64,000 bases of DNA. It comes from Chloranthus sessilifolius. Taxonomy: Eukaryota; Streptophyta; Magnoliopsida; Chloranthales; Chloranthaceae. This document shows, in pieces, positions 17,016 to 56,484 of the stretch. The position numbers and the translations under genes were made by a program. The stretch is from contig CM037598.1 in assembly GCA_021018995.1 (NCBI GenBank), forward strand, positions 77,084,671-77,148,670, in the 5' to 3' direction. Positions within the stretch are counted from its first letter, which is position 1. The number at the start of each line of letters is the position of its first letter. Below the pieces are notes generated by a model. It saw only the letters and a list, made by a program, of their open reading frames with translations, made no database searches and was not told the DNA's origin.

Positions 17016-17022
17016 GTTGTAG

Positions 17023-28767: not shown

Positions 28768-28769
28768 GA

Positions 28770-30240: not shown

Positions 30241-33200
30241 ATGTCGTGGGTAGTAGACCCAGCTTATGCCGATCTCGACACATCCCCACCACACTCTCCA
30301 ACCCATTCCCATTCGGGGGAAGTCTTTTCCACCATCCCCCTCACCCAATCACCCATCACTGTTACCGACCCATTTGGCGCCCCCATTTTCCCAACCAATA
30401 CCCCCCAAAATATCCAAAATCCAACCCCCCATTCTCCATCTTTTGTCCAAGTCATGCCCATGCCAAATCCAACTCCCAAACCCATTCTCCCAATCCACAT
30501 CCATGCCCCATTTCCCATCTTTCCCCTATAGGCCCAATCCACCCACATTCACATACAACACTTCCACCCTATCCAACCCTCCACAAATCCCCCCATATAT
30601 CCGGGTCCTGCCCATTTTTACCGGGCCATGCTTGGTTTTTCCCAAACATCCACACCCCACCAATCACATCCCTAATCCTTCCCCATCCTTTGCCCCACCT
30701 CAACTCTCCAATCCACCTCATACCCCCTCACATACTATGGTTATGCCCAATTATATCAGGGTCATGCCCAATTTTCCTTCCACATCCATCCCATCCATAC
30801 CCAATCATCCCTTAAATCCACCACCCACATCCGATCTTCCTTCCATGACCATGATGGAGGAGATGTTTTAAGCCTACTCCTCATGGAAGGCTTCCCAAAA
30901 TACCTCTCCTCCACACCCCACATCCATGAACCCATCCCAAACCTTAGCCAACCTCCATGCTTCACTCCCCCATGACCCCCATCAACCTCCCATAATTCAC
31001 ACCATCCAAACCCCCACTACCCACTTGCCCCAAAGCCCCCCGGCCCAACCTCCCACCCACATACACCCAAGGCCCAATCCAATATTCAAGGCCCATTGGC
31101 CCAAACCCCTACCCAATGGCCACCCCACCAACCTGGTCAAGGCCCATGGCCCAGACCCACCAAGGCCCATTGGCCCAAACCTACCCAAACCCATCAAGGG
31201 CCCATGGCTCAAACCCATCAATGGCCCATGGCCCAAAATGACCAAGGCTTCATGGCCCAAGCCCAAACTCCACACTCATACCCCAACATTTCACCCAACC
31301 TTCACCGGTCAAACCCACACCCCAAACCCAATTTTCCCATGGCCCCACACCCCAAGGCCATCTCCAAACCTTCCCCTATTTCCAATGGCCCCATCAGGCC
31401 CCACCCCAAAACCTAACTTCCATTTATCCCATCACCTAACAAACCTTTCCTCACCCCCAATAGGCTCACCCAACCCCCGCTCATGCCATTCCCATCCAAC
31501 CCATGCAACACCAACAAGAGAATCGCCTCGCACATTATGCCATCAAGTATGAAGAGGATGGAATAGTGGAGCCTATGTTGGCATTGACCACCTTAACCCT
31601 CCTCCCATAATTGCCCACCCTTGGTGGCCCAGAGTGAAGTCCAACCCAAGAAAGCCTCAGATAAAAGAGTCAGAAAGAACAGCTTGGATAAAATTCAAAA
31701 AGCAAGATGAAAATGGTGGTGCAAACGCCATGGACTTCACAGATTTGTGTTTATTCACGAGGTCCCTTGCCTCTAAATTTAAAATGCCTGACAAATATAA
31801 CGAATCAATCCTATTGCACACCAAGTCCTACTGTGGGGACATGTGCTACACGGAGGGAAAGACTACTAATAAAAGTCTTTCAAGAGTCGACTGTCCTTTG
31901 AGATGGTTCATCTTTGAACCATCCATGATGAAAACATGGAAGGACTTGACCTCTTCAAGAACAATATGTCTAAATGTAGACATTGAGTCGAACTTGGCTC
32001 ATGAGGCGTAACAATGAGACCTTCAAGATTATCTGGGACACCGAGAGCTCAAGTAATAGAATATGATGATGAGCGATAGAGATGATCAAAAATACAAAGG
32101 ATATCGACTTTTGGTGTACCAAGAGCCAAATTTTGATCTAAAAATGCTAGTCGATGTGAGGATGCCATGAAGGCCATCTCAATAAGAAGTGGAGCCAGGG
32201 GGTTGGAGGTTTTCGAAGGAATGAGAAGAGAATCATTTCAAAACATTGCCAATACAGCCCAATAATAATACAATGCTCAATTTCCTACCGCTGTAGAGAC
32301 AAGAGAAAGGAATGGGCAAGGAATGCAAATGACTCGAGAGGAGAGCGCTATGATCGAGTTTTACGCCTGGGCAATTTGTACTTTTGCCTTAGTAGAAAAG
32401 GGATTAGTCACTATTCGTCACAACCTCCTCCCATCCATCCTAAAAACCACTACCATTGTAATTTCCATCGTATCGTCACTGATCGATCACGCGCTTGAAG
32501 CACATCCAAGATTTGATTGACGCGAAAATAATTCCACCACCTTCTCAAGCACAAATGAATCCATCACCATTGCCCACATCCCTATCGGAGAGTCCCTGCA
32601 CCCACCATGGGATGAGAGAAATGATTGAATTTGATCTGATTACATCAATGATCGGAGAGTTATGTAAGCAAGGAATAATGAAGAAAGGAATTGGGGTGAT
32701 TGAACCCCTAATATTATTTCCCACCCACACCACAAACAACCCCAGATCTTGGCATTTTTCACCACACTCCAAATTATGTACATAAATGCATATCAACCAT
32801 ACACCACCACCCCCATCAACTACCCAATGAACCAAAGCCCCAATCCTCCACCGCTAATAAATTATCAATGGCTCGCCACCCCATTACCCCTCAACCATTG
32901 CAAGATCTCCACTCCATCAATTACCCCATGGCCCATCAAACCCCAATCCTCCACCACCCATCAACTACCAATGGCCTTTTACCTTTTCCTCGGTACCACC
33001 ACCTCAAGCTTCACCACCCCATTTGGCCCAATCCACCCAACCGCCACCACCGAATAAACCAAGTGTTGCCCACCTGAGCCACCTGTACATCAAGTACCGA
33101 TAACCATACCTTTCAGCTCGGACTCAATGATCCTCATCTAAGCATGAACAAAGATGTCAATGCCGACAACAAGAGAAGGGCAAGGATTTTGTCACGCTCG

Positions 33201-33354
33201 AGGATATCAAAGCACCGTAAACACCAAAGACAAGCCCAACCAGAGGAAGAAGGATAGCAACCCTTCAAAAATGAGTGAAACATATACTAGAGACTCAAGG
33301 AGAATGCCATATCACCAGGGATCTAATGACGCCCCCACTATTTCCAAGCATTAA
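30241..33354 (+). pseudogene. gag: Element D gag (broken)
   Basis: Starts MSWVVDPAYADLDTSPPHSP at 30241. The first 430 codons are extremely Pro/His/Ser-rich and frameshifted. A repeat like GPMAQTHQWPMAQ lies at about 31190-31260. The capsid core is at 31634-32011 (MDFTDLCLFTRSLASKFKMPDKYN, then LLHTKSYCGDM and LRWFIFEPSMMKTWKDL), matching gag of G at 63974-63717. The C-terminal block KHIQDLIDAKIIPPPSQAQ (about 32495) is the region after the usual CxFH motif. A second Pro-rich stretch (32749-33077) ends it. Stops and shifts are frequent. Confidence 0.75.
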
Positions 33355-34250
33355 TGGGGGCATTGAAAATGCATGTAGTCCAAGTTAAAGTCAAAGATTG
33401 GTCAAGCCCTAATGCCATTTCATTTTCTCGATAATTTACAAGGGAAGGAGGTAGCCACCCAAATCTTTGAATATAACTGAGTCTGAAATATGATTATCCT
33501 TGGTTCTAATTGATAATCCGCAAATATATGCCCATTAAGAACCCACCAAGATGGGGTTGATCCATGCATGTTGAGGCCCAGAACCATAGCAGAGGTTTTG
33601 ACAATACCAGAGAGAAATAATGGGAGAAGTTGATCTGAATTGATAGGCCAATGACCTTTTTCTTGTTTCAAGTAATGGACATCAAATCCTCATTTATCTA
33701 TGCATGAGGTCGAGCCATACCTTCCACAACACCGTAAACTCAAATTTGCATCGGCACAAGATTATCACATCATCGAGGGCATATGAGAAAGAAAAGGCCA
33801 ACAGAAAAACCGGATGTTTGCACATAAGGATGTCGAATTTCATAATTTCAATATGAGGTATCGATTCTGAGCCCATTGAGGGCATCATTCAAAATCAAGT
33901 AAATGGTAGCGGGCTATGCTCCAAAAGTGGGCTATCAGAAGGAAGGGTCCGACCTGGACATAAGGAAGGAAAGAGCGCTTATCGCCAAGGTAAAGGTCGA
34001 TTGTTAGGTTACAAGCCCACTGGAAGAGGTCCGAGAGGCTAAAGAAAGTCCGCAAATGCAAGAGCAAGAGGAATCAACATAGAAGAAAAACCGCCTAGGC
34101 CGATTAGAATCTGGGTCATAAAGATCGATCAAATGGGGTAAACCCATTTGACCTACAAAACCCACAACCCCAATCCATCCCACCAATCCTACATCACCCT
34201 TCCAAGCCTAGAGATAGATTTGGCATATCCTCTTGAGGAATGACGCATCA
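33355..34250 (+). pseudogene. Element D protease remnant
   Basis: No open frame, but scattered blocks line up with the protease of G. HYFQALMGALKMHVV (about 33335-33380) corresponds to YFQALIGALKDAHV in G. NICPLRT (about 33520), PMTFFLFQVMDIKSSF (about 33650) and KLKFASAQDYHIIEG (about 33740) follow. GYKPT at about 34010 resembles the end of the glycine-rich post-protease domain. Pieces fall in all three frames and the catalytic Asp-Gly block is not recognisable. Confidence 0.55.
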
Positions 34251-36290
34251 AGACTAACAAACTCCCGTGGTGAATCACCACAAATGTTAACGCTTGAGGA
34301 TATCATCTCGATGAAATGGGGATCAACATGATGGAGGCGACTCAATAAGCCATATCACGCAAGACTCCATCCAATCGTAAAGAAGCCTCATGCAATTGGG
34401 CATCTTTGCCCAAACTCGAAGAAGTGGCCTAACAGGCACTTGTTTCAAAAAAAACAACCATACATGATAAGACGCAAGGTCAAAAATGCACCTCATTGAA
34501 AAAACAAAATCTCAAAAACATTGAATCAAACATAGTATCAATTCCCTTTCCGTAAAAACAAGAGTATCTGATGAATCTCTTAAACATTTGACTATTTTCT
34601 GATTACATCATGAACAAAATGAATGGTGGACTAAAGATTTAGAATTTGACCAAGAAATACCTCGAGGATCTGATAAGTTCCACATATTATTTGAGATTGA
34701 TTTGATGAAAATCCTCATTAGCATCAATGATAGAAATTGTAATCAATTTGAGATGAAGCCAATCATTAAATAAAGTGGGAGTTTTATGCATTGAGGGATC
34801 ATGTGATCCTTTATTACCGAACATCAAGAAATTGATCCCTCTAAACCTCCAAACTGAGAGGATTAAGACCCATTTCAATCTGGATCGAAAGGAATTATGA
34901 ACATCATCATGGAAGATCCAAGAATCATGAATCCATTCAAGAAAAAATTGCTTTGGAACTAATTTAAAAATGAAGCTCATGGGAATTTCTCCAAGATTAT
35001 CAAGAGAGAATGTCATCACTTGAAAATTGAGGAGAAAGGAGACCATTTTTGACCATTAATATGTTTAAGATTTGAAATAATGCGATGCTACAAGCTATAA
35101 GCAAATTCCATCATCATATGACGACCGCCATCAACAACTGACGCGGCCATTATCACATTAATAAATCATCACAACATCGATACTGACCACTCATTAGATT
35201 TAAACATGTAAATAATGTCACCAAAGAGGATCATCACAACACGAGGCCAGTTATGTATCATTTTACCAATGATATCTCCACATCGATCATTTCATATTGA
35301 CAAATAAGTAGAAGTCATGAAGAATCAAGCACCAAATCTCTCATATCCGATTTAAACTAAGAGTCGGAAGTCACAACACGTCACACAGAAATGAACACTT
35401 ATGAGAGATCCAAAATTTGTTTGTATGGAAAATATAAAATTGCACCATCGTCACACCATCGACTCAAAACTATTGACCAGTAAGAAAGACCGAATCACCT
35501 CATGAATGCTTACCCTGAGACAAGAGTCGCTTGAACAAGTTCATCGATTAACATCCATCTCTCATTAAGTACTATCACAAAGTTGTCGTACCAGAGGTTA
35601 GCACACTAATCCAGAATCAAAGATCAGAGAGAGATCAATTGGAACTTATTAGATAGAGAAGCCTTGTGTCATCAAGTTTATCGGGAATCACCATCTTCAA
35701 GATCCAAGGTAGGAGATACTATCGAAGAAGATCTTCATCTCCATTCCGAGAGGAAAGTTCAAGCCAAACCGATACGACTCTTAATGAGACCACTTCCAAA
35801 AGAGGCGATCATTCTAAACACAGTAGCTAGAAATCATCCCTAAAAATGATGATATCCCTTGCTACCCCATTTGAGCCCGAGCCTTTCTTCCAAAAAAAAA
35901 CCCCTCCCCCAAAAAAAATGTGTGTGTACATATACAAAAAAGAGGAAATAAAGTTACCACCAAAATCTAAAATGATTGAAAAAGCAAAACCTCAAAAAGA
36001 GATTGCCTGAAATGGAGTAAAAATAAAAAATATATCGAAGAATCACGAGGCATGATGAAAACCCCAAGGAAAATCAGGCTGATATCAAAGAAACCCTTTA
36101 GCCTAGCATACCTTCAAATCCTAATCTGGCCAAGCTACCTAAAAGCCTCTTTAGGTTCACCATAATATGGTTAAATACAAGCCAAGTTATGGGACGACAC
36201 CAGAACTCCATCTGGCCGGCTATGACGGAATCGACGTTTATGTCGGGGCTTTTAAAAAAAAAGAAAAAAAAAACTAAAATACAAGCTCAA
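34251..36290 (+). other. Element D middle region, no recognisable gene
   Basis: Where RT, RNase H and integrase would be expected I see none of their motifs in any frame: no [YF]xDD block, no SDGG/TDNG block. The sequence is AT-rich with frequent stops. The only long open stretch (35046-34687, minus) shows no family features. From 35880 homopolymer A runs and TGTGTGTGTACATATAC appear. This part was probably replaced or decayed beyond recognition. Confidence 0.6.
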
Positions 36291-36303
36291 AGCAAGATGG
36301 ACG

Positions 36304-36450
36304 TGGTGAAAACCCGAAAGGGCGCTACGGGTAAAAACAAAGAGTTTGTGCGGACCAGGTGAAAACTCAAAAGGGCGCTTGGGGTAAGAAAGCTAAACCC
36401 ATGGACAGGGTGAAAACCCAAAAGGGCGCCACAGGTAAAAAAGGGAGATA
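36304..36450 (+). repeat. Three tandem GGTGAAAAC-type repeats in D
   Basis: Units starting at about 36304, 36357 and 36408 share GGTGAAAAC(C/T)C(G/A)AAAGGGCGC followed by a GGGTAA-type word; the period is about 52 bp. Similar GTGAAAACC-plus-GGGCGC blocks are, to my knowledge, common in the 3' untranslated part of Tat-lineage elements. Role unknown. Confidence 0.6.
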
Positions 36451-37014
36451 AAAAGAAAAAAAGAAAAAAGAAGAAAGGTTTGAAATGACTGATTGATTAT
36501 TCTTTAAGGAGCCCTTAGCTCTCCGACCCCTTTTTTTTACCATGTTAGTTCAAATTGTCAGTAATTGTTTTTGTAAAACTCCAAGGTAAGGAGAAAGGTT
36601 TGACTCAATCCAAAGGGATTGACATTTCGGCCTTGGTAAAACTGTTAAAATTCTCTCAGAGTCAACCATTAAAAGAGGGGTTCAACCATGCTCAAAAGAG
36701 GACCCAGGGTCACAAGGTTTCACCTAGTGATTAAGGCACCACATCCAAAAAATGCACAAAACAAAAAGACAGAAAAGTCTCTGTAGATATACATAATAAA
36801 CTACCTTTCTTTTATAAAATGCACCGCTTGCAACACATCCCAAAAAATAGCCGGTGTGATGACTAGCTTCCTTTCTTTCTTTCTTTACAAAAATAGCAAA
36901 AAAACAAAAACATAAAGAAAATATGTATATAAAAAATGGTGTATCTGTAAAGGGGTTTTTACGCCCCTTTTTCTATGTATTTGATCTATGCAAAAAGTTG
37001 TGTGCAGGAAGGAA
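36451..37014 (+). other. Noncoding spacer in D
   Basis: A/T-rich sequence with no supported gene, between the GGTGAAAAC repeats and the 3' end of the antisense gene at 37015. GTAAAGGGGTTTTTACGCCCC (36946-36966) gives a short inverted repeat just beyond the antisense stop; it might mark 3' processing, but this is weak. Confidence 0.4.
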
Positions 37015-38345
37015 TTAGTGGCCCAGCTTGCGCTTCAATGTGCTAATCTCGACACGAAAGTCATCTTCCCGGACATTCTGCTCGATCAGCCAGCGACCAT
37101 GCAAGCTTTTGTACCTCTTCCGAGAAGAATCAGTAGCTCCAAGGGCAACATTCAATGATCCCTTCAGACGAAGGACCTTGCTCTCCGCTATCTCTACCCT
37201 GACTTTTTCTTGTGACAAAAGTTCTTGCAAGACCCTCTTCTCGTCCACCAGTAGCTCGATGAGGGCTCAGAGCACCGTCTCTTTCTTTGGCCATGGGCCT
37301 CCAAAGTCAATCATCTTTAATCCATATTGTCAGATTTCGAGAGAAGATGAACCAAATCTCCCCGCTCCATATCACACATCGCCGACTAACACGCTCCCAA
37401 AGAGCAAAGAATCCGATGTCTCCAGAGGACCCCTAGAAAAGATCAAGTCACATAAACGTAAGGCACCACCGAGAGCAAACAAACCGACGAAGTAGAGGAT
37501 GCTGCCAGTCAATCCTAGGAGGGTGATGCCCTCATAGTCTCCAGAGCGAACTACTGGGAAGGTCCGGTCCAACCAAGGAAGCCTCCATATCAGCTCAGCA
37601 TTGGTCAACCAAAGCTTCAGAACTGACAAATTGCCCTACGGAAGCGGGTGGCACCTACCCAAAAAGCACTGAGCCGCCTCACCTCGAGCAATATAAAAGT
37701 GGGGCACAGGCCCCAAGATAGCGAGGTGCTCGCACAACCAAACCTGAAGCAGCAAGGGGCACCCCCGAAGGCCCTCCACCTTGCCCAAAGCAAATGAATC
37801 AAGGCATCGATACAACTCGGCGAGCACCAAATGCATCATGGATCGGCCCGCCTCCAACTCGGTCAGAATATCACAATTGCCAAGGAGAAGCTCTCCCCCT
37901 CGATAAAGAAGAGGATTTCTGAAATGAGACCGACAACTAAAGCTTTCACATTGAAAATGTTCTTAACCGGCAATTTTCGGAGACTTTCATCACTGAAAAG
38001 TTCTTTGAGGAATTTTAGCGAACACCTTGTGGGCCCCCCAATGAGACTTTTCTCATACTCAAGTTTCATCAAACCGAGAGTAAGGTGAATGGATTTTGGT
38101 AACAGAGGACTTCTCATGAAGCTTGACAGATGATTGGATAGTTCCTCAAGGGTTTATTCTCCCCCAAAATGGAATACATGGAAATTTACATGCCAAAATG
38201 AAGCGGCAGCATGAAGAAGGCCCCACCGTGGAGGAACCTCAAGGAAGGAAGGAAGGCGAGATAGCCCAAGGTGTTCCAAGTCGGCGAGCTCACTCTCATT
38301 CAAGCTCCCAAACCAAGTTGTTAGAAATTTGGGCCCCAAGCCCAA
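37015..38345 (-). pseudogene. Antisense gene 2 of D, like the extra ORF of Ogre-type elements
   Basis: About 440 codons on the minus strand with stops at about 38154, 37861, 37636 and 37372 and one frame change near 37860. Blocks in order: WFGSLNESELADLEHLGLSR and FWHVNFHVFHFGGE (38330-38155), RCSLKFLKELFSDESLR and FNVKALVVGLISEILFF (38030-37870), HLVLAELYRCLDSF and CPLLLQVWLCEHLAILG (37830-37710), then RLPWLDRTFPVVRSGDYEGI and LLGLTGSILYFVGLFALGG (37580-37450). A coiled-coil-like C-terminus runs 37248-37015. The block order resembles the DUF7745-type protein encoded by extra ORFs of Ogre and related Tat elements. It has its own TATA box at 38540-38549. Function is unknown. Confidence 0.6.
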
Positions 38346-38539
38346 GGAAGGGGATAAATTGGTTCCGGGCCCTCCACGTAAGGGAGGGTTGGAAAGTGGG
38401 TCTATAGACGTACAAAGATCTATTCAAAAGACAAAAATCGATGCATAGTGATGGACCCACCTTGGAAAAGCAAGAGCAAAAAGAATCGGTCAAAGGGGCC
38501 AAGTCAAACAAAAAAGGGATGATCTTTTGGCTGACACGG

Positions 38540-38549
38540 GTATATAAGG
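38540..38549 (-). promoter_or_regulatory. TATA box of antisense gene 2 in D
   Basis: On the minus strand CCTTATATAC lies about 195 bp before the first homologous Met and just downstream (minus sense) of two palindrome copies at 38634-38656 and 38574-38594. The arrangement resembles that of the LTR but is more compact. Confidence 0.5.
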
Positions 38550-38571
38550 ACCCATAGCTCCCCAGGTTAAG

Positions 38572-38660
38572 CCTGGCGCAACTATTAGTTGCGCACATAG
38601 TTGCGCTAGTACAAATTCCCTGGGATTTTAGCCTGACGCAACTATTAGTTGCGCCAGACT
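38572..38660 (-). promoter_or_regulatory. Palindrome cluster upstream of antisense gene 2
   Basis: Two near-perfect copies of the D palindrome (38574-38594 joined to a half copy ending 38608; 38634-38656). They lie between the two antisense genes, directly upstream of the TATA box of gene 2. Confidence 0.55.
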
Positions 38661-39034
38661 AAAGATCCCCCCTCCTCAGCCATCTCGAGGTCTAATTGGG
38701 GGGGGGGGGGGGCTTTCACCCCTTTTATTTTTTATATATATATATATATATATACATCCGATCATTAACGGTTTGGGAAATTACTTTGTTTATGTGCAGG
38801 ATTGATCCTACATCAAAGCATGCGACCCAAAAAGTCGCTTTTTGAGAGCATTTGGCAAACATGTCCTACAGAAAAATAGATACGATACAAGGAAGCCCTG
38901 GCATACAATCAAGACAAAAGCACTAAAAATATTTTCAAAAAATATATCCAATGTGTCACATCATCCATCCCAAACTGTCTAAAAAACCAAAATCCAATCC
39001 CAGGAGTACTGAGTTTTAAACCATAAACTAAAGC
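38661..39034. other. Spacer between the two antisense genes
   Basis: Contains a run of 15 G at 38698-38712 and an AT microsatellite at 38733-38754. No gene is supported. Confidence 0.6.
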
Positions 39035-41670
39035 CTATTCATTGCCCGCGCCTTTGGACTTCTTCTGATGACGAGAGGAGCTCTGGAAAGTCCGCATATC
39101 CCCCACCCGGGCCCACGCCTGCGAAATCCTACTAAGCAAAGAGCACGACTCCTTGGCACGTGCACGCTGCAAGGCACAGTCGAAATAAAAAATTAGGACC
39201 GATTGAGGGGCAAACGATAAATAAAGGGCATATAGCAAAGCAAAGGTCTCCACCTCCCGAGCTCCATAATAATGGATACTCCATGGCCGAGTTAAAGTCC
39301 TATGTTCATAAAGATACGACATCAGCTATCAGGGCAATCATAAAACATGTGCAAAAGGGAGACCGAAACTAGAAAGAGATGGGTTGTCAGAGGACTTACC
39401 CCTGGGATCACCTCAGGAGGAGGGACACAGGCCGCTTCAGCAGAGAGCTGTGCTTGTCTATCCACATCAGCGTAGAGGCCTGAAAGGAAGCTATCATCCA
39501 AGCGTCAGAAGGTCCCGTAAACTACGGTCGGGTTGAGACCTCAAGCCCATCTCCAAGTGCTTCAGGCCTATGTCACGGCGCTGGGCTGATTCCAGTTGCT
39601 AAGGAGAGGATAGGTGAGCACATCTGAATGGAGAAGCGGGCGCCCGGGGTGGAAATGATGGTACCCCCATACCTGAGAAGAGCATTATACAACAGAAAAG
39701 AGCAGTAGGTCAGTAGCATGAGAGACCATCCAAGTAAAAATAATAAGAATAAGAAGAGTTAGGGATTACCTCCAAGGCCGCCCAAAAGCCGACAACGGAC
39801 TTAGAATCTACGGTCATGACCGGAGCCACATTATACATTATGCGCATCATTTAATCATACCGTGGACGCCACCCGATGTCCATCACGCCAAGAATGCTAG
39901 ACTGACCGCTCACATTGGTAAAAAGGGTTTTGCCTAGCAAAAATAGGAGAGTAATGTGAGCCAGGACGATCGTCATGTCAGAGTGATATAGAGCACCTAT
40001 CTATCCACTATAAAGGGGAGGTCACCATCTTGACCATGAGTCGCCTGTGAGGGGATAGGCCTGGATGATTTACCAGGTCAGCTATCGGTATCCCTCTCAT
40101 CCGGATGCCCATAATCATTGCCCAATCAACAGGGGTTAAGGTGATCTCAACGTACGGCATATGGAAGGTCATCGTCTCAGGGCGAAACCGTTTGATCAAT
40201 GCCTTTAGGTAGGCAGCATCGGCCCTCATAGCAGGGCAAGACAAAAACTCCCCAAAGCCCACCTGTGCCAATAGGAGCTTCACTACAGGAGGGACGTAGA
40301 GGTAGAAGTCTTGAAAATCAAGCCACCCCCCATGGAATACAATGTTGGGCAGGTCCTGCATCCAAAGAAATACGCATCAGGTCACGGAAGTAAAGCAAAG
40401 CCGCACAAAGAAAATAAATTGAACCTGTCTTTTACCTTGCCCTCTATTCAAAAATTTGAAATATGAGTATGTTGTTGATGAAGGAGGCCGACTCGGGCAG
40501 CTTCGCCCTGCATTTCGAGCCATGGGCCCGCTCTCCGCTCTACCCAGAGGAACTGCTCCTCCCACGGTCCATATACTATCTCGGGCCCCTCCTCAAGGCC
40601 CTCCTCAGGAATATGCTCATCATCACCCGACATGCTGGGGCAACAAAAGGCAATCACATCCGGTCAGATTAATGATAAAGAACCATGATATACTATGCAT
40701 CAAGGGGAGGTAAGAATGTTCACCATTTCCCCATTTATTTTCGGAAATGAAGATACACATGCAACAAAAATCTTCTTTAAAAAAAATCATTATCAAAATA
40801 ATAAAAAAATCCTTTTATTTGGTTTACAAAAACAAAAAATAAAAGTCCTTATACTTCAAAAAAAATCAAAACCTTCAAAAAAAAATCCTTTTACTTTGTT
40901 TACAAAAACAAAAAAATAAAAGTCCTTATACTTCAAAAAATCAAAACCAAAAAAATCATTTTACTTTGTTTGCAAAAACAAAAAATAAAAGTCCTTATAC
41001 TTTAAAAAATCAAAACAAAAAAAATCCTTTTACCTTGTTTACAAAAACAAAAAAAAATAATAAATAATAAGAAAAAAGAGGGGGTCCTTATGCATAAAAA
41101 AAAAATCATCAATTAAAACCCAACAAAAGTCCTTCTTTTATAAAAAAAAAAAATAATAAAAAAATAGAGAGTCCTTTCTTTATGCTCCAAAAATCAAAAG
41201 CCAAAAAAAAACCTTCTTTCACAAAAAAAAAAAACAAAAAAAAACACAAAGAGTCCTTTCTTTTTGCCGATAAAATAAAGAAAACCAACACAAAAAAAAT
41301 GCATCCATTCCTTAAAACAAAACAAACAAAACATATAGGCACCGATAAATTCATAAAATAACAAAAATAGGGCATTGATCATAAGAAATCATCCGCACAC
41401 CATCTATAAATACATCCACAACCAAAAATAAACCACTACTCATCCAAAAAGTGAAAGATCATGATCACATTTGCAAGAAAAAGCAAGAAAAATCAATCAA
41501 AAGAAGAGTTTTAATGATTACCTTTTGGAAGAAGAAGGGGTCTCTGATCTAGCGCAAGATGGCGATCGATTAATGCGAGTGAATAAAGGCAATGAAGCAC
41601 GCGTAGATGCAATGTAAAGGAACCCTAAAAGGGGTCGGTTTTTGGTTTTAAGAGAAGAGGGGGGAGAAAA
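39035..41670 (-). pseudogene. Antisense gene 1 of D: spliced plant-mobile-domain gene
   Basis: Exons on the minus strand: 5' untranslated about 41670-41522; 40634-40436 (ATG at 40633, right after a TTTTGTTGCCCCAG acceptor); 40355-39770; 39672-39400; 39299-39035, perhaps with one more intron ending at about 39170. Introns have GT-AG ends (GTAATC, GTAAAA, GTAATC, GTAAGT donors). Exon 3 carries the PMD core: FLSCPAMRADAAYLKALIKR, then RFRPETMTFHMPYVEITLTP and MIMGIRMRGIPI. This domain is found in plant nuclear proteins such as MAIN/MAIL1 and in transposons. Stops (TGA in exon 2 near 40447, TAG at about 40008) break it. No transmembrane segment is seen. Confidence 0.7.
40811..41060. repeat. A-rich tandem repeat in the leader intron of antisense gene 1
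   Basis: Four imperfect units of about 68-76 bp, each with TTTACTTTGTTTACAAAAAC followed by AAATAAAAGTCCTTATACTT. They lie inside the long first intron (41521-40635). Related but less regular A-rich copies continue to about 41330. Confidence 0.7.
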
Positions 41671-41696
41671 TTTCGAAATGAAACCCCACAGCCCAG

Positions 41697-41845
41697 GCTG
41701 TTTAAATTGGTCCCCAGCCAAGCCAGGGGCAACTATTAGTTACGCCAAGCAAAATTAGGCCCATATTTTGCTTGGCGCAACTAATACTAACGCCAAGCTG
41801 TTTTGAGGCCCCTATTGGCCTGGCGCAACTAATAGTTGCGCCAGG
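41697..41845 (-). promoter_or_regulatory. Palindromes and TATA-like box upstream of antisense gene 1
   Basis: Three copies of the D palindrome (41724-41747, 41773-41795, 41821-41843; the last perfect) lie just upstream, in minus sense, of a weak TATA-like tract CCAATTTAAACAGC at 41699-41712. A pyrimidine-rich leader (CTCCCCCCTCTTCTCTT) and the splice donor at 41521 follow. This is the third palindrome-plus-AT-box arrangement in D. Confidence 0.5.
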
Positions 41846-42109
41846 CACTTATGTCCGGTCCCGGGCCTGGTGCGGGCCAAATAGGAAGGCCGGTCCCCCG
41901 CTTTTTTGTTTTATCACTCTGGGAAGATGCACGCGCTCCCAAGACGGCATTTCGATCTTCCTCTGACTTGCCCGGGAAGCCGTGCTAGAATAAAAGCAGG
42001 CTGAGATCAACCGTCATCCCGGTCCTACACAGGAAAATGAGAAAAAGTTCAAAAAAAATGATGATAAAAGCCCCACAGAAAAAGCCAAAACCATTCACAT
42101 AAAAATAAT

Positions 42110-42425
42110 AAGAGAAAATCCAAAAAATAACAATTTGAAAATTCCAAAAAAATCCAAAAAATAACAGTTAAAAAAATCCAAAAAATAACAGTTTGAAAAA
42201 TCCAAAAAATAACAGTTTGAAAAATAATAAAAAATCCAAAAAAAAATAGTTTGAAAAACAAAAAAAAAATCCAAAAAATAACAGTTTGAAAAAAAAAAAA
42301 AAAAATCCAAAAAATAACAATTTGAAAATTTCAAAAACATAACGGCTAGAAAATCCAAAAAATCACATAAAATAACAGCTTCAAAATCCAAAAAAATAAT
42401 AATAGAAAAACCACGAAAATAAAAA
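42110..42425. repeat. Short A-rich tandem repeats in D
   Basis: About ten degenerate units of roughly 25-33 bp with the core CCAAAAAATAACAGTTTGAA. The Phe-rich ORFs on the minus strand here are by-products of this composition. Confidence 0.7.
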
Positions 42426-43726
42426 CAAATTTCTATTCCCCCGCAGAGACGCACAAGCATAAGGACGTAAAATGTCAATATTTTATCAGCAATGCAGCTG
42501 TGCCATACTAAAGTCCTGAGTCTAAGGTTCGCCTCGGATCTTTGGATCCTGCTTTAAGGTAGGAGCAACGGTGTCAGTCCCGATCAAATAGTCAATGTTT
42601 CGATCGAGTCGACTCCACTGCAAAATCTTTGCGATGAGCGCTCTGTTTTGGATTCATATGAACTTAAGTGTCTTAAGCTTCAGATTCTTCGTTGGAAAAG
42701 GTCAATCGTTGGTTGAGACTAACCTGTTGAGCATGAGATTACGTATCAATCAAACTATGTTCAACCATGCATCTAGAAGGGTTCATTCCCCCTTTATTTT
42801 CTACAGGCTTAAAACCTGTATTCGCAGTGGTATCCCTGTAAAGTGTACTCCATGCGTCTGGGTATCCGTATGATGGTCGTTTGTTCCCGTAAATTATACT
42901 CGGGTAGGTCCGGGTCGGACCTTCCATCGCTTTTGTTACTTATCGGCCCTAATGGGTGCATGTTTATGCATAGTTAAATGATGTTTATGATCATTATTGG
43001 CAAAAACTAGGATTGGATGCCCCTTTTGAGAGATGCCCAATATTTGGTTGGATCTGTTCAAAGTAGTTGAAGCTGGATGCTCTAGATCATGTTGATCTGG
43101 GGCACATCTTCAAAAATGGCACGTCCTCCCCAAAAAGTGCTATGACATCTATTCACTTTGCTAGGGCAGTCATGCTAAATAAACTTCGAGATTGATGGGC
43201 TCGCCCAAAGACCTCGAACCCTGCGTTCAGCAGGGGCACCCGCGAATAGTTAGATGGGGCAATCAAATGCCTCGTAAGATTGGATGCAAACTGTGGAGCC
43301 TTGTGTATTTTTGCTTTGCACCTATCGTTGAGTGTGGGTCAATCACCCCTCTTACTTACGAAGTTGTTGTATTCAGAATAAATCTTGAACATCAATCACC
43401 TTCAAATCATCTCGAGGAGCGGACATTTTTCCTGACTAAAGGGCTTTCGTAACTTGAGAAGCGAACATTTTTCCCAGCTATTGGGCTTTTGCAACTCATT
43501 TCACCTCGGTTATGCCCAGTAATGTCGCTAAGCACTTGGGGACCGATTACCTTGAGAGACAGACATTTTTCCTAACATACAGGGCTTTCATTTTCTCACC
43601 ATTACTCACCTGATGTTTGAAGTTCGTTCTGAATACAGCTGACCCATCAATAATGCCTTGGGCCACTTTAGATGTCTCTTTTCTTGGTATTCGATCATTA
43701 GTGATAGGATACCAAAGTGGGACATC
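42426..43726 (+). other. Element D 3' noncoding region
   Basis: No gene is supported. Three imperfect repeats at 43411-43450, 43453-43500 and 43551-43590 share GA(A/G)(C/A)G(A/G)ACATTTTTCC...GGGCTTT. The purine-rich CCAAAGTGGGACATC at 43712-43726, directly before the 3' LTR, is the probable polypurine tract. Confidence 0.55.
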
Positions 43727-45373
43727 TGTAGATACCCAAATTTGGCCCAAGGCTTGATCGGAACACATTTCGAGAAAGGTGCACTTTCGAGCTTTTGATG
43801 GCATATATGAAACCTTTAAGAACTACCCTAGAACCCTTAAAGAACCCCTCTAAATCCTTAGGAATCACCCTAGATCCCTTAGGAACCTGCCCCGAACCCA
43901 TAGAAATCAATCCTAACCCTTAGAACCCGTTCTGAACCTAAACCTAACCTTTCCGAGCAATGGATGAGGAGTGGTACACCAGAACCAACTACAACCTTCT
44001 ACTACGATCGAATCTTATACCATTAAAAAGTAGAAGTCGTCAGCTTTCTAACAGTCTAGGAATCGCCCCAATGGAAGTTGTACATCAAAAGATATGGCGG
44101 TCCAAACCCAAAGGATAAAAAGTAATTTCTTGAGGGCCCCCCCCTTTGGATTTGGCACAACTAATAATTGCGCCAGTTATAATTTCCCCTGGCACAACTA
44201 TTAGTCGCGCCAGGCCATTTTCCTAGAATTTAAGCCTGGCGCAACTAATAGTTGCGCCAGTATTAAAGTGGAACCCACCCTTGCAAGGCAACTTCCAGGT
44301 CACTGTTTAGCAATGTTTTACTGTGCATTTGCCTGGCGCAACTATTAGTTGTGCCAGGCATATGAACAGTAACTCTGTCTTTTTGCCCCAAAATTCATGA
44401 TTGGGGTTTGACTTGTTGACCACCTTGACCTTTGGGGTGTGTTTTGATAGTTCTAGTACACCCTTTTGTACCCTATTTGCAACTCATTAAGTGGCTTAAA
44501 GCCTCACCCTATCATCCACCATTGGAGGACCTTCTCACACATTTCAAGGCTCCAAAAACCCTAGGAAACCTTAGATGTTAGATTATATAATTCTTAACCT
44601 TGAATAGCATCTAAACACTCTCCTAATCCACCCATTTCCTATAAATAAAGACCCCCACCCTTTGGTTTAAGGGTTGAGAATTTTGGCCTAAGAGAGAAAG
44701 AGCTTAAAGTGAGAAGATCTTTCTCCCTTTGGCGCACACTTCCCATACAAATTCCAGATTTCAAAAAGCTCCCTTAGACCTTAGCACTTCATGAAAAGCC
44801 TCTAGGGTAGGTGTGTGTGATCCCCTAGCCTTCTTTCTCTACCCCTTAGCTTCAAGCCTTAGGAGTTAGAACTCCATTCCATACCATACAAGCCTTCAAG
44901 AGCTTATCAAAAGCAAGCCACGCTAGTCTCTCCTACGGTGCTATAAGGGCCCGAGGGCTCCGGCTCTCCCCTTTCTTCTCCTATCTCTTTTTGGCTCTTC
45001 TCATCCTCCCATTTGTGTCGTTACGCCGCCAAATTTTTGATAGGAATGGAGGGGCCGCACAAATAGGATTCTAAGCCCTTTTGGACAAGAGGAAATCATT
45101 TTCTTTTCTTTTACTTTATTTTTATTTTGGCCATTAGTAGAGACCGCGTTAAGCGGGTTGACTGGGTGCCTAACACCTTCTCGATCGATAACCAAAGCCC
45201 TTACCCAAGAGCCTTTGGTGTGGACCGGATTCAGAGTCATATTTTTAGCACTTCGGTGCTCATAAAAATGAACTAGGTTTCTCGGGACACCAAAAGCTCT
45301 GGGTGGCGACTCTATATTTTTGTAAGCGAGTGCATTGCTGTAACAGGATCATCACAAATCTCACGGTTGCACA
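43727..45373 (+). repeat. 3' LTR of element D
   Basis: 1,647 bp, colinear with the 5' LTR. Four palindromes lie at 44153-44175, 44190-44212, 44237-44259 and 44334-44356, and the TATA box at 44639-44650. It ends GGTTGCACA, then the duplication TTATC at 45374-45378. Confidence 0.9.
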
Positions 45374-45378
45374 TTATC

Positions 45379-45823
45379 TTTTTTGACGACTGAGCACCGT
45401 AATTCTACTTTTCTGGAGGTTCGTATTCAGGTTTAAAATTGGACAGTGAGGGAGTTGGATGTGGGTTTGGAGGAGAGAGAGGTTCAAGCAGAGGCTGATG
45501 GAGGTTTGACTTTCATGCCATGAACAATTGGACTCGGATTCGGGTGAAATTTGGGTAGGGAGGCGGACTTGGGGGTGTGACCCGAGTGATTGAGGTCGAA
45601 GGGTGTGGCCGAATAGCTAGGGGCCTTGGAGACTCTACTGGATCGACAATGGCAATAGGTGAGGGAAGGCGAGTGATTATAGAAGAAGGATGGAAAGAGG
45701 GTCGTCCGGAAAGGTCTACTGTAGTGATGTGGGACACTGGCCCTTGGTTGTGGTTTGGCATGGGATGATTGTTAACAATTCCTAGATTTTGCGGTGGTTG
45801 GTTGTGAGAATTTCAGAGAGCTT
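45379..45823 (-). pseudogene. Element C gag end / gag-protease junction between D and B
   Basis: This 445-bp island joins 27120 on one side and 54504 on the other once D, B and their duplications are removed. The minus strand has an open stretch 45761-45513 rich in Pro and Ser (PNHNQGPVSHITTVDLSGRP; SPPPYPNFTRIRVQ), fitting the Pro-rich tail of Tat gag. Reading on through 45430-45379 into 27124 keeps a Pro-rich frame (LPPPPHTISPPLIPGPAPPP). This continuity is good evidence for the nesting. Confidence 0.65.
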
Positions 45824-47341
45824 TGATCAATCACAGAATTTACCATTTTATCACCCTTAACTTAGTGATGCTAGGACTTAGTTTGCTACTAACAAGTTAA
45901 CGATGTGCAGATATTAAGGAAAAATAGTAAAAGAGAGCCAAAGTATTAATATTCATCAAAATAAACTCGAAAAGCAGTAAAAAGACGATTGAGCAAAGAG
46001 AAGACGATTCGCCGCTGCTGAAAGTCAAGAAATCGTACTTTACAGTTGTGTGCTAAAGCTGAAGACGAAAAGAAAGTGAAAACTAAGAAATCATAATTTA
46101 CGATTCTTCAAAAGGCAATTCTTCAAAAAGTGAAAAAGGAGTCAAAAGCGATAAAGAAAAGCAATCATTCATTATAGGAAATCGTCTAGTAAGAAAGCTG
46201 TGTGAAAATGAGAAATCGTGATTTACGATTCTCTAAAAAAAGAACAATCATAATTTACGATTGCGTAAAGTTATTCCCATTGCTACATCTGCTACTGCTG
46301 ATGGTTACGTGAGTGAAGATTATTACCGCCATGCACTAAATTAGAAGATCTCTGAAATTAGAAGTTTGGTGAATCACGGATCTAAAAAGATTGATAAAGA
46401 TAAGTTCTTAGGAAATCTCGATTGCTGAAATAAAGGAGAACAATCTAGAAGCACATCTACAGTTAAAAACAAGGAAGAATGAAATTAGGAATTAGAATCA
46501 TATTAGAAATTTTTTAGTAGTTTCTTTTATTAGAATTATAAGTCTTTATAAACTGACTCCTTATGATCTATAAATAAGAGAGCCCGGTGTAGGAATAAGG
46601 GATCGAAGAATTTCAGCATCAATTGACAACTGAGGTTGGATTTTCTTCCGATCAGTAGTATAAAGTAGTTAGAGTAAATTAGATATCAGAGGTTTCTCAA
46701 GAGCAATTGATGACTGCTGTTGGGTACTGAAGATTAGTGTAGGTATCCTAGTTTCTCAGAAGCAATTGATGACTGCGGCTGAGGAGTGAAAGATATAGTT
46801 ACTTTGCTTTTTAGTTTAGATTTTATTTGCTTTTTTACTGCTTTATAAATATCTTCAAGTTTTAATTTGAATTGACAACTCAGGTTGAGATTTGCAAACT
46901 ACTATAACGGTTTTTATTTTTCCATCTTCAATTTTCTAGAATTTGATTGATGCCCAGATTTTAGGAAATTGTTGATTATATTAAATTTGTGTTAAAGAAT
47001 TTTAGTTTTTTATTGATGCCCAAATTCTAGAAGATTATAATATGGTGTAACGGTACTATTTATTTTTATAAATATCCAATGGTTGAAGATTGGGATTGAC
47101 GACCTCAATCTGAAGAAGGAGGATTATGATTTATTTTATGCATCTTAGATTAAGAAACCATTCTTTTATTCATATTTCTCAAGTAGTTTAGAACCTTAAA
47201 AGATAAATATAAACTTTAAAATAGAAATATGTAAATAAGATAACACTTCTTTGTGGGAACGATCCTATACTAGCTCTACAATTTTCATTGTGCGCTTGTA
47301 AAACGTTAAGACTTAATTAGACATACATAGTAACTTGTTCA
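45824..47341 (+). repeat. 5' LTR of element B
   Basis: 1,518 bp, TGATCAATCACAG to TTGTTCA. Palindromic motifs AATCGT-n-ACGATT and variants lie at 46088-46105, 46212-46230 and 46244-46262. The TATA position after them is degraded here (GCGTAAAGTTA), although it is intact in the 3' LTR. The U5 motif TTTGTGGGAACGATCC lies at about 47252. Confidence 0.88.
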
Positions 47342-47347
47342 AGTTTT

Positions 47348-47365
47348 TGGCGCCGTTGCCGGGGA
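47348..47365 (+). other. Primer binding site of B (tRNA-Asp type)
   Basis: TGGCGCCGTTGCCGGGGA begins 6 bp after the LTR end. This is the standard Athila-lineage primer site, complementary to the 3' end of plant tRNA-Asp. Confidence 0.88.
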
Positions 47366-47645
47366 AGTCCTTGTCTTTTTATATTTCTGTTTTAATAAAT
47401 AAATATTTATCTTTCTCTTTTTATATTTCTTTGTATTTTTAACTTTCTTTGATCACTTCTTATGCTTTCGTAGGTTTATTTGGAGCAATAGATCAGAACT
47501 TCAACATTCCTGTTGGCCACAGAGACTAGAGGCTCAGATTTGTTTCTCTCTGCAATCTAAAAAAAATAATAATAATAAAATATTATATATATATATATGC
47601 TCTCAATCCATTGCAAATTAAGGGACCAAAGTTGAACAAATAGCC

Positions 47646-47915
47646 ATGCAAAGGGAGAGAACGGGAGACAACCAAGGTTGTTTCCCAACAGGGACCAATA
47701 TAAGAGGACAATCATGTAAGGGATTTACACCAACTCCTACACCTCACATTCAGGCTATTCAAACTCTACGAAGTGGAAAAATTATTGATATTAAGGTAAA
47801 TATGCCTACACCATTAGTCGCCCCTGAACCCCATATCAAAGAAAAGCGAACCCTAGAAGAAATCCCCTTGCCAGAAAAAAAAAAAAAAGTAGGAAAAGAA
47901 AATATAAAAAAATAA
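47646..47915 (+). pseudogene. gag: Element B gag C-terminal remnant
   Basis: 89 codons with IQAIQTLRSGKIIDIKVNMP and a Lys/Glu-rich end, matching the last part of E gag (IKAITMLRSRK at about 7375). The capsid domain that occupies 211 codons in E is absent; only about 280 bp separate the primer site from this remnant. So B could not make particles itself. Confidence 0.7.
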
Positions 47916-49150
47916 GTAATGAGGAGGGTACACCAAAATCCGTGGCTAAAGTACCTTATGTACCGAAGTTACCTTATCCAATGGCTTTGGTACACCATCT
48001 CCTTCTGATAAAAATCCAAAAAAATTAGAAGAAATTACCGAAATCTTCAAGGAAGTAAAGATTAATTTGCCTCTCTTAGAAGCAATTAAACAAGTCCCCG
48101 CCTACGCAAGATTCCTAAAGGAGATGTGTATGCAGAAAAAAAAAAAAAAAAGGCGAAAAAATATCTCGCAAAAAGTTTTCTTGACAAAGCAAGTAAGATC
48201 AATCTTACAAGCCAAAACCTTGCCTAAACATAAGGATCCTGGAGTGCCTAAAATTCCATGTATTATAGGCAATCATGCTATAAATAAAGCACTTCTTGAT
48301 CTGGGAGCCAGCGTAAATCTGCTACCATATTGCGTCTACAAAAAATTGGGGCTGGGAGATATGAGTCCTACTTCGGTAACTCTTTAGTTAGCAGATAGAT
48401 CAGAAAGAAGGCCAGTAGGAGTCATTGAAGATGTTATGATTGGGGTCGACAAATTTATTTTCCATGTCGACTTCTTATTGCTAGACATGGAACCCAGTTC
48501 GAAATCTCCAACACAAATTCCCGTTATACTCCGTAGACCATTCTTGGCCATGGCCAATACATGCATCAACTGCAAAACTAGAGTAATGGAAGTTTCTTTT
48601 GGAGAAATGTGAATCCAGTTAAATGTTTTCTCGACAGCCAACCAAATGGCTTAAATTTACGATGAGGAATGCTTCAGCATAGATGAAATTGAAGAACTGG
48701 TGGAAGAAGCATTACCTCTAGTATTATCTAAGGATGTGCTTCAAACTGCATGATGGTATACGGACCCAGAAGAATCAAACTACCAACTAAGGGAGGTGAC
48801 TTCTATGCTGAACACTTCTGTCTGTGAACTCCAGTCCCAAAACATGGAAGCCGTGGATAGAACCTTTGCCCACTACCTCCAATGAACCATTGCAACCTTC
48901 CATCGAAAAAGCACCATCCCTAAACTAGAACTACTTCCCAACACCATTAAGTACGATTTTCTTGGGCCAATGAAACTCTCTTAGTGATCATTTCATCTGC
49001 TCTTAACAAGGAGCAAGAGAGCAAGTTGCTGGCCATACTTATAAAATATAAACGTGCAATCGGGTGGACACTTGCTAACCTTAAAGGGCTTGATCCGTCA
49101 ATTTGTATGCATTAAATTCATCTAGAGGACAATGCCAAAACTACACGTGG
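47916..49150 (+). pseudogene. Element B protease and linker (broken)
   Basis: The stretch 48067-48387 reads MPLLEAIKQVPAYARFLKEM, a Lys run, and LLDLGASVNLLPYCVYKKLGLG with the retropepsin active site DLGAS. Beyond a stop at 48385 the frame goes on with GVIEDVMIGVDKFIFHVDF and RRPFLAMANTCINC. A degraded acidic linker reaches LPNTIKYDFLG before RT. The poly-Lys stretch at about 48137-48150 comes from a 16-A run, a possible slippage frameshift site. Confidence 0.75.
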
Positions 49151-50060
49151 AAGTCAATGATGGTTAAATCAAAACATGAAGGAAGTAGTCCAAAAGGAAA
49201 TCGTGAAACTATTAGACGCAGGTATTATTTATCCGACTTCTGACAGTAAGTGGGTGAGTGCCATTCAGGTAGTCCCAAAGAAATCTGGGATTACCGTAAA
49301 AGAAAATGCATCTGGTGAGCTAGTACCATTATGTAAAACCACAGGATAGTGTGTATGCATTGACTACCAGAAGCTTAACTCCATGACACGCAAGGATCAT
49401 TTTCCACTATCCTTCATTGACCAAATTTTGGAAAAACTTGCGGGTCAGGAATATTTTTGTTTTCTAGATGGTTACTCAGGGTATAACCAGGTTTCGGTCT
49501 ATCCGAAAGACCAAGAAAAGACCACCTTCACGTGTCCTTCTGGGGCATTTGCTTATCATTGCATGCCCTTTGGGCTATGCAATGCACCCGCAACCTTCCA
49601 AAGATGCATGATGGCAATCTTTTCTGATATGATAGACAGGTTTCTAGAAGTATTCATGGATGATTTTTCGATATTCGGCCGGACCTTCGATTCCTGTCTT
49701 GATCACCTTGCCCTCATTCTAGAAAGATTTACTAGGAAACGAACTTGGTACTAAGTTGGGAGAAGAGCCATTTTATGGTTCAAGAAGGCATAGTCTTTGG
49801 GCACATTGTCTCCGAAAGAGGAATAGAAGTTGACAGGGCTAAAATTGAAGTAATATCAAATCTGCCACCACCAACTTCGGTACGGCAAATTTGATCTTTC
49901 CTTGGCCATGCCGGCTTCTATCGACGCTTTATTAAAGGTTTCTCAAAAATCTTGAGACCTCTTTGCCATTTATTAGCAAACGATGTACCTTTTAACTTCG
50001 ACGATGCCTACCTTGACGCGTTTAATAAACTTAAAGCCCTTCTCTCATCTGCACAAATCA
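49151..50060 (+). pseudogene. Element B reverse transcriptase (broken)
   Basis: KLLDAGIIYPTSDSKWVS, then after a stop at about 49348 CIDYQKLNSMTRKDHFPLSF, SGYNQVSVYPKDQEKTTF, MPFGLCNAPATFQRC and EVFMDDFSIFG with FMDD as the catalytic motif. The frame is lost near 49735 (TRKRTWY then stop) and resumes in another frame with GIVFGHIVSERGIEVD and FLGHAGFYRRFIKGFSKI. Same blocks and order as E. Confidence 0.82.
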
Positions 50061-50583
50061 TTCAATCACCTAACTACTCCTTACCTTTTGAAGTAATGTG
50101 TGATGCTTCTGATTACACAATAGGTGTCGTCCTATGATAGCGTAAAAACAAGATTCCGCTCGTAATTTATTATACGAGGCGTACCTTGATCGAAGCTCAG
50201 CTTAACTACACTACGACTAAGGAGCTTCTTGTTGTCGTATTCGCATTGGATAAATTTCGACAGTACCTATTGAGATCAAAGATTGCCATTTTCTCTTATC
50301 ATTTTGCACTAAAATACTTTTGCAGGAATTCAATTTCAAAATCAAGGACAAGAAGGGTGTTGAAAATGTGGTAACTGATCACCTGTCTAGAATCGAACTG
50401 CCTGAAACCAGCAGTAGAGAGTCTTTGCGCAATACCTTCCCAGATGAGCAACTTTCTGCCATCCAAGCAACAGTGCCATGGTACGCAAACATCGTAAATT
50501 ATTTGGCAACAGGTAAGATTTCCCCGACCTGGTCCAATCAGGACAGGTACATTTTCTTTTCTAATGTAAAATATTATATTTAG
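50061..50583 (+). pseudogene. Element B RNase H (broken)
   Basis: SLPFEVMCDASDYTIGVVL (stop), then IEAQLNYTTTKELLVVVFAL and KFRQYLLRSKIAIFSYHFAL in one frame. A frame change follows at about 50320 into FNFKIKDKKGVENVVTDHLS, the usual end of RNase H in Athila-like elements. A segment after the LKYF block appears shortened relative to E (the LF-KED region is missing). Confidence 0.72.
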
Positions 50584-51719
50584 GAGGATCGCGACCTATT
50601 CAAAATACGCCTAAACCAAATAATTCAAAAAAATGTGCCTAATAGTGACACCCATAATATTTTATAATTTTGCCACACATATGCTTGTGGGGGCCACTTC
50701 GGAGGCAGGAAAATGTTGCTAAAGTACTGCAATCAGGATTTTATTGGCCATCATTATTTAAGGACGCCCAAAAAAATTTTCAGGCCTGCGATCGTTGCCA
50801 GAAGTCAGGAGCTATGTCCCGAAGGAACATGATGCCCCTCCAACTGATTTTGATCGCAAAGCCCTTTGACGTCTGAGGCATAGACTTCATGGGTCCATTT
50901 CCACTTTCGTTCGGATTCACATATATACTTGTAGCCGTTGACTACGTATCAAAATAGGTAGAAGCAATAGTTACAAGAAAAAATGACCATAAGGTGGTAG
51001 TCTCTTTTATTAGGGAAAATATATTTTCGCGGTTTGAAATCCCACAAACCATTATAAGTGATGGAGGAAGTCATTTTTGCAACAGGCATTTCGAGAGCTT
51101 GCTCAAGAAATACGGTGTCACCCATAAAATCACAACCCCCTACCACCCGCAAACTAGTGGGCAAGTTGGGGTTTTCAATTGGGAAATAAAGAAAATATTG
51201 GAAAGAACTATTCAACCTGACAGAAAAGACTGGTCTCTGAGACTAAATGATATCTTATGGCCTTACAGAACGGCCTATAAAACACCTATTGGCATGTCCC
51301 CTTTCCGACTGGTGTACAGTAAGGCCTGCCATCTACCTATGGAATTAGAGCATAGAGCCCTATGGGCTATCAAACCATTAAATTTTGAACTAGACGCATT
51401 TGGAGAACAAAGAAAGCTTGAGCTTAATGAACTGGAAGAAATTCCCAATGATGCCTATCAAAATGCTCGAATTTACAAGGCCAAAACTAAAGCATTTCAT
51501 GATAAACACATTTTGAGGAAGAGTTTTGAGCCAGGCCAACAAATTTGGTTACACAATTCAAGGTTAAAACTGTTCCTAGGAAAACTACGAAGTCGTTGGG
51601 AGGGACCTTACAATGTGGTCGAAACATTCCCTCACGAGGCTGTCACTATTCAGGATCCCAAGGATAATCGTACATTCAAGGTTAATAGGCAAAGACTTAA
51701 ACCTATGGTATCTTTATAG
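50584..51719 (+). pseudogene. Element B integrase (nearly open, catalytic Glu changed)
   Basis: The zinc finger spans CHTYA..GGHF region to CDRCQ (50660-50800). The core has [19 protein letters not shown] (first Asp, after a stop at 50874), [11 protein letters not shown] (second Asp) and [17 protein letters not shown], where the expected catalytic Glu after SGQV is Gly. The last 241 codons (50994-51719) are open, including the C-terminal [20 protein letters not shown]. It is more intact than the rest of B but should be inactive. Confidence 0.85.
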
Positions 51720-54498: not shown

Positions 54499-54503
54499 AG
54501 CTT

Positions 54504-56482: not shown

Positions 56483-56484
56483 GC

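Follow-up and report, generated by a model that had tools for sequence, protein, structure and literature searches.

The window analyzed here, a 64,000-nucleotide stretch of Chloranthus sessilifolius contig CM037598.1 (positions 77,084,671 to 77,148,670, forward strand), contains a large long terminal repeat (LTR) retrotransposon, element D, in which a single 23-bp palindrome recurs in arrays in both LTRs, in the leader, and upstream of two antisense genes. Element D spans window positions 27125 to 45373 (18.2 kb), is flanked on both sides by the 5-bp target site duplication (TSD) TTATC, and has LTRs that share 90.5% identity. Its features are listed below, with palindromes given by the starts of their cores.

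27125 to 28767, plus strand: 5′ LTR, defined by LTR identity, its ends, and the TSD; U3 with four palindromes (27552, 27589, 27636, and 27733) and TATAAATA at 28037
29578 to 29748, plus strand: leader array with four palindromes (29583, 29630, 29677, and 29725) in steps of 47, 47, and 48 bp, about 500 bp 5′ of the presumed gag ATG (30242)
30242 to 32011, plus strand: gag region, frames broken; the start codon is our reading
33333 to 34160, plus strand: remnants of the protease and of the linker preceding reverse transcriptase (RT); weak matches (E values of 0.006 and 2e-4)
37015 to 38445, minus strand: antisense gene 2, PMD/DUF7745-like, frames broken; the start is our reading
38540 to 38549, minus strand: TATA-like box of antisense gene 2, CCTTATATAC; place kept in 10 of 11 arrays
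38571 to 38659, no strand assigned: array of antisense gene 2, with palindromes at 38576 and 38636 and a half-site at 38598
39035 to 41700, minus strand: antisense gene 1 (PMD gene), with a leader exon that runs to a donor-like site (41521), an A/T-rich intron, and coding pieces at 40663 to 40451, 40376 to 40008, and further; frames broken, exon borders are our reading
41701 to 41706, minus strand: TATA-like TTTAAA of antisense gene 1; found 10 to 15 bp past the array in 14 of 19 arrays
41722 to 41846, no strand assigned: array of antisense gene 1, with palindromes at 41727, 41775, and 41823 in steps of 48 bp; the one at 41823 is a perfect 29-bp dyad
43727 to 45373, plus strand: 3′ LTR with four palindromes (44155, 44192, 44239, and 44336)

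The palindrome, a dyad reading TGGCGCAACTAATAGTTGCGCCA, is present in D as 17 copies and one half-site (38598). An earlier, sequence-only reading of this DNA had described about 18 copies of a 23-bp dyad in just five places (both U3 regions, the leader, and the stretches upstream of antisense genes 1 and 2) and had noticed none inside the open reading frames (ORFs). All of this holds: the 17 copies fall in those five places, the gag region, what is left of pol, and the antisense gene bodies (with gene limits as we place them) are free of them, and the conserved span over 221 labeled copies is ±11 bp, or 23 bp. The 19-bp core at up to 3 mismatches gives 30 matches in the window when counted by strand (one site usually scores on both strands), all of them in D, and none in 100 shuffles. 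The 29-bp form is found in 17 copies at up to 7 mismatches; beyond these, up to 11 mismatches, there are just two matches, both at 11 (one within the 3′ U3 array and one at 51059), which are at chance level since a Markov null yields 11 matches at 11 mismatches and 1 at 10 in 20 simulated D-size sequences. A chance cluster was rejected on the shuffles and the Markov null. When three internal arrays were placed at random in D, all three came within the observed distances of the gene starts in 13 of 400,000 trials, or in 116 of 400,000 when gene bodies were avoided, figures of illustrative value only as the reference points were picked after the fact. Steps between neighboring palindromes less than 150 bp apart measure 47 to 48 bp in 121 of 156 cases and 37 to 38 bp in 10 of 156. 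The two step classes differ by one DNA turn, and we make no claim of helical phasing since the shorter step is so rare.

The exact 19-mer occurs 12,638 times (6326 + 6312) in the 2.17-Gb genome of the same species, and its reversed control is absent. Elsewhere it was found in one stretch of viral contigs and in four of prokaryote genome contigs, where by our arithmetic about two are expected by chance in 257 billion bases. Among 20 stretches of the genome picked for exact palindromes (L014 to L033), each of which spans only part of an element, 17 have a U3 array, 9 a leader array, 9 an array before gene 1, and 8 an array before gene 2. Further samples were drawn with the motif ignored. Of twenty gene-1 copies, picked manually at approximately regular intervals from 149 scored nonself protein matches, 18 have an array. 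It is located 1278 to 1845 bp before the PMD exon, and the remainder of the 2600 bp read holds none; ten shuffles of each of the 20 upstream regions gave no match. Twelve gene-2 copies, chosen likewise from 149 matches and read for 450 to 1050 bp upstream, include 10 with an array about 590 to 790 bp upstream of the query piece. The 221 labeled palindromes (up to 8 mismatches of 29) comprise 17 in D, 128 in L014 to L033, where labels follow place ranges that we set, and 76 in the motif-blind regions, all of which were scored as the array of the gene concerned. Thirteen more palindromes in L014 to L033 lie outside the ranges: ten lie at distances of 38 to 96 bp from one of the listed arrays, and the other three, in L026, stand just before the gene-1 leader of a neighboring copy, and by this sorting, which is our own, no palindrome away from the arrays was seen in these stretches. 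The palindromes are grouped in five arrays in D and stand in matching places in most relatives examined, and the random placement that would have spoken against a control element was not seen.

The arrays of the antisense genes are followed at short distance by TATA-like boxes. In D and its 10 array-bearing gene-2 relatives, a TTATATA box stands 21 to 25 bp past the array in 10 of 11. Of the 19 gene-1 arrays, 14 have TTTAAA 10 to 15 bp further on and 17 have a TATA-like word of some kind within 60 bp, compared with 25 of 74 control windows further downstream. In the U3, TATAAATA lies 302 to 498 bp beyond the palindromes in 7 of the 8 U3-bearing loci looked at, with none at the U3 of L028. The sequence-only reading had assigned a TATA to gene 2 and a TATA-like tract to gene 1. 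The place of the former is kept while its sequence reads both ways, and the latter keeps its distance from the array in most copies and is not a canonical TATA. A second dyad, CAGCCCGANNTCGGGCTG, is located just past the TATA-like word of gene 1; it is exact in 4 of 20 gene-1 regions (L036, L039, L040, and L042), and D carries a shorter form of it at 41680 to 41700.

The dyads are less diverged than their surroundings. When the 18 array-bearing gene-1 copies are compared with one another, the dyad's central 11 bp differ in 3.5% and the whole 23 bp in 12.8% (9.5% without two CpG positions), a comparison that mixes palindromes of different rank in the array and is flattered by leaving palindromes with more than 8 mismatches of 29 uncounted. 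The four-fold sites of the PMD exon differ in 42% (20 copies, about 37 sites a pair). In D and nine copies with three palindromes at 48 + 48 bp, pairwise identity is 0.859 for dyads and 0.728 for spacers, compared with 0.641 in the sequence upstream and 0.778 in the leader downstream. The position of the arrays is not independent evidence taken alone, because the four places (U3, leader, gene 1, and gene 2) are shared by descent, and the sole argument for selection on the dyad is this unequal divergence, which argues for it. Position, TATA distance, spacing, and the dyad itself, all retained in most relatives chosen blindly, give good support to the proposal that the palindrome is a control element specific to the family and reused by its sense and antisense units, as does a dyad center far less diverged than the four-fold sites of the neighboring gene.

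Antisense gene 1, a PMD extra ORF located between pol and the 3′ LTR, scores against PMD (PF10536) with 33.7 bits on one frame and 36.5 bits on the joined pieces, at a cutoff of 34.9. Its PMD pieces are stop-free in 15 of 20 copies, and the PMD exon is under purifying selection, with a median ratio of nonsynonymous to synonymous divergence (dN/dS) of 0.113 (dS 0.907, dN 0.096) over 190 pairs of 20 copies, although dN is lowered by drawing the copies from the 150 best protein matches. The joined pieces of gene 2 score 24.5 bits against PMD and 16.8 bits against DUF7745, both under the cutoff (34.9 for PMD), and the gene is therefore named PMD-like only. No match to the joined pieces of either gene was found in a set of 5.8 billion proteins, and the PMD piece of gene 1 has no relative among the viral contigs.

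We propose that a dimeric regulator would bind the palindrome as double-stranded DNA, at a two-fold symmetric site of 23 bp. With a step of 47 to 48 bp, arrays of such sites would mark each transcription unit of this Ogre-type family: some 300 to 500 bp before the TATA box of the LTR, in the sense leader, and at both antisense genes (PMD and PMD-like), 10 to 25 bp before their TATA-like boxes. With an array at each unit, one factor could switch the sense unit (genomic RNA) and the antisense units together. Judged from the sequence, it is likely that a dimeric factor binds the dyad arrays and links the sense promoter with the antisense ones; we infer that the arrays are promoters, that a dimer binds them, and what the binder may be. 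The sequence-only reading had suggested binding by one of the antisense products, and the element's own PMD protein is a favored candidate, though no more than a lead: the element encodes a PMD under constraint, host PMD proteins are required by genes whose promoters carry a motif, and a self-encoded protein of VANDAL transposons binds motif arrays (see below). The circuit would then be autoregulatory, and the additional arrays in the U3 and the leader suggest a role in keeping the chromatin of the element itself open, similar to the VANC system of those transposons, over plain repression. Counting against PMD as the binder, no known DNA-binding fold could be pointed to in the PMD protein.

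A host transcription factor could bind the dyad equally well, in which case the element would have taken a host site and multiplied it and the PMD proteins would do other things. This alternative opposes only the PMD part of our proposal, not the regulatory part. It explains the arrays no less well, and it fits L027/L028 (about 20 kb), where gag, RT, RNase H, and integrase (INT) were found and no antisense gene was found, and which still have palindromes, in the U3 and leader only. Promoter hijacking by LTRs is common, which counts for a host factor, while a symmetric site of 23 bp exceeds the usual length for plant factors, which counts against it. By our own estimates, the PMD protein and a host factor are each a serious candidate at somewhat less than an even chance, and any other binder is unlikely.

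Two further explanations would remove the DNA-binding site itself. The palindromes could form RNA hairpins in the genomic RNA with a role in packaging, dimerization, translation, or dicing; the leader array has very strong RNA folding (z of −7.95), as any palindrome would, and the genomic RNA would include the internal arrays and the 3′ U3. A hairpin kept in this RNA should show G-U changes in excess of A-C changes, which is hardly so: sense-strand mismatched pairs number 197 G-T versus 174 A-C at positions 2 to 14 and 102 versus 90 at positions 2 to 11 (within ±11). The lack of a clear G-U bias, together with the coupling to TATA-like boxes 10 to 25 bp past the arrays of the antisense genes, favors a DNA site with two-fold symmetry, and the palindrome seems to act as DNA. 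RNA hairpins as the main role were rejected on the missing G-U preference, and we regard them as very improbable. Likewise, the arrays could be neutral tandem repeats, generated by duplication and common to relatives through descent alone. This would account for the 47- to 48-bp step and for alignments that run across palindromes and the spacer between them (leader/U3, 80 bp at 76%; gene-2 array/U3, 68 bp at 79%). The spacers of different arrays are, however, not significantly alike (only the two within the gene-1 array are), a comparison with little power because the spacers are 8 to 19 bp long, and the dyads diverge less than the spacers and much less than the four-fold sites. On spacer unlikeness and unequal divergence, a plain tandem repeat was rejected, and neutral origin is in our view most improbable.

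Several observations weigh against a shared promoter element bound by the PMD protein, in addition to the limits given above with the divergence estimates. The leader array is located inside the transcript, an unexpected place for a classical promoter element. The array is absent from gene-1 copies L037 (flanks remain) and L041 (promoter region not found either) and from gene-2 copies L074 and L078; L052 has one palindrome only, at 8 mismatches, and L015 has gene 1 without an array within the stretch. Five of the 19 gene-1 arrays are without TTTAAA at 10 to 15 bp, and the TATA of gene 2 (38549 to 38540) reads TATATAAGG on the plus strand, so that, being readable both ways, it cannot alone fix a direction. 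The outer dyad positions 6 to 11 differ in 21.4%. Against PDB sequences, the PMD piece of gene 1 gave nothing significant (best E value, 0.49), and the DOWN motif associated with host PMD proteins, CATGCAGTTT, does not resemble the D palindrome, as far as the available text of its report gives it. A second PMD group (L086 to L089; 4 of 128 matches looked at) is without the D palindrome (best, 13 to 14 mismatches of 29). These four loci have another repeated motif upstream of the PMD gene, GTGGGTGGATTTAAAGGTACTC and variants in both orientations, which says nothing on PMD binding because homology among the copies stops nearby and the motif may thus consist of transposon-end repeats; the group may represent a DNA transposon with subterminal repeats.

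The coding content of D is reduced. No RT, RNase H, or INT was detected in it by comparison with the window's own RT, RNase H, and INT pieces, and D looks nonautonomous as it stands (window 33100 to 36200), while it retains its antisense genes and arrays. This loss of pol is probably not general among relatives, since gag and RT are located near antisense genes in the neighboring same-orientation stretches L018/L019 and L024/L025 (the members of each pair were read separately, leaving 1.6 and 3.6 kb between them unread). RT in the stretches of five relatives is 59.7 to 63.6% identical to the RT of element C, and a gag segment of D (31728 to 31889) shares 46.7% identity over 60 amino acids with a gag-like piece of element F. 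Directly after the 5′ LTR, D reads TGGTGACTCTGCTGGGGA, which we take to resemble the Ogre primer binding site (tRNA-Arg). A-rich tandem repeats occupy 40803 to 41267, in the intron of gene 1 (units of 69 and 81 bp), and 42101 to 42429, between gene 1 and the 3′ LTR (units of 22 to 58 bp). Minus-strand gypsy pieces flank D at 17016 to 27119 (RT and RNase H) and 45379 to 63980 (gag-like); they are broken up by D and by an LTR element at 45826 to 54504, which looks like nested insertions. Another LTR element of the window, A (3713 to 17015), whose gag is presumably Athila-like, has a dense motif of its own, TCGATCAATCGAC, with near-palindromic variants. At up to 2 mismatches, this motif matches 50 times in the window when counted by strand. 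Element A holds 49 of these matches, which lie in its LTRs, its leader, and the stretches before its downstream ORFs, and 5813 to 11270 holds none.

Each ingredient of this arrangement is already known singly, whether the antisense genes, the presence of PMD in Ogre, or the motif arrays, which other transposons have. The sources below are cited for the portions of their text that were available. Ogre elements are characterized by PMD as their extra domain, which 57% of them have (PMC6317226), and gypsy-encoded PMDs form clades of their own, PMD-A1 and PMD-A2 (PMC5418596). As a large element with LTRs, a 5-bp TSD, and an antisense extra gene scoring as PMD, D resembles the Ogre clade (Tat) of Ty3/gypsy; it differs in having two antisense genes, PMD and PMD-like, both of which are preceded by an array of the common palindrome together with a TATA-like box. 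Extra antisense genes are known from other retrotransposons (PMC7264820; PMC11963269), and Grande gene23 is transcribed from a promoter upstream of gene23 (PMC7264820). The antisense gene TRP28 of Retand, in contrast to that of D, has a Transposase_28 domain and not PMD. The available text of PMC11963269 describes tandem repeats, mentions no motif shared by sense and antisense units, and has "palindrom" in a reference title only. In listings and abstracts of the open literature (most subscription papers lie outside it), together with the portions of text cited here, we found no report of a conserved dyad array that a single LTR retrotransposon family shares among its LTR, its leader, and both antisense promoters. 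Two 13-letter forms of the motif occur literally in none of the 20 papers listed of 98, where any paper with either form would have ranked above those matching a single term.

A close parallel is with the VANDAL DNA transposons of Arabidopsis, whose VANC motifs are family specific, short, and dense and stand in tandem in noncoding parts, introns, and upstream regions (PMC5735166), where a self-encoded protein binds the arrays and undoes silencing (PMC5735166; PMC10398659). D likewise has dense family-specific motif arrays in noncoding regions. Unlike D with its 23-bp dyad, the VANC motifs are 8 to 9 bp in one orientation, with no mention of a palindrome in the available text (PMC5735166); D is an LTR retrotransposon and not a VANDAL element, and its binder is putative whereas that of VANC is proven. 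Host PMD proteins offer a second comparison. Loss of the Arabidopsis proteins MAIN, MAIL1, and PP7L lowers the expression of genes whose promoters carry a motif (25 of 26; PMC7156037). MAIN and MAIL1 differ from the D protein in being genic PMD-C, and their DOWN motif is reported in the MORC1 promoter by a source whose available text does not show direct binding (PMC9899485). No role has been established for the antisense genes that giant plant retrotransposons carry, and what PMD proteins do biochemically is open (PMC7264820; PMC9899485). The dyad common to the LTR and the antisense PMD promoters offers a concrete DNA target for asking what retrotransposon PMD proteins do. In a broader view, which we regard as doubtful, these proteins would be sequence-specific dimeric anti-silencing activators, each family with its own motif array; the Ogre PMD would bind the 23-bp dyad at all its promoters, and MAIN/MAIL1 with DOWN would be a domesticated PMD-motif module. 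If PMD does bind the dyad, the origin of the host silencing pathway MAIN/MAIL1 would become testable, and LTR retrotransposons would join the VANDAL elements as transposons with self-encoded sequence-specific regulation.

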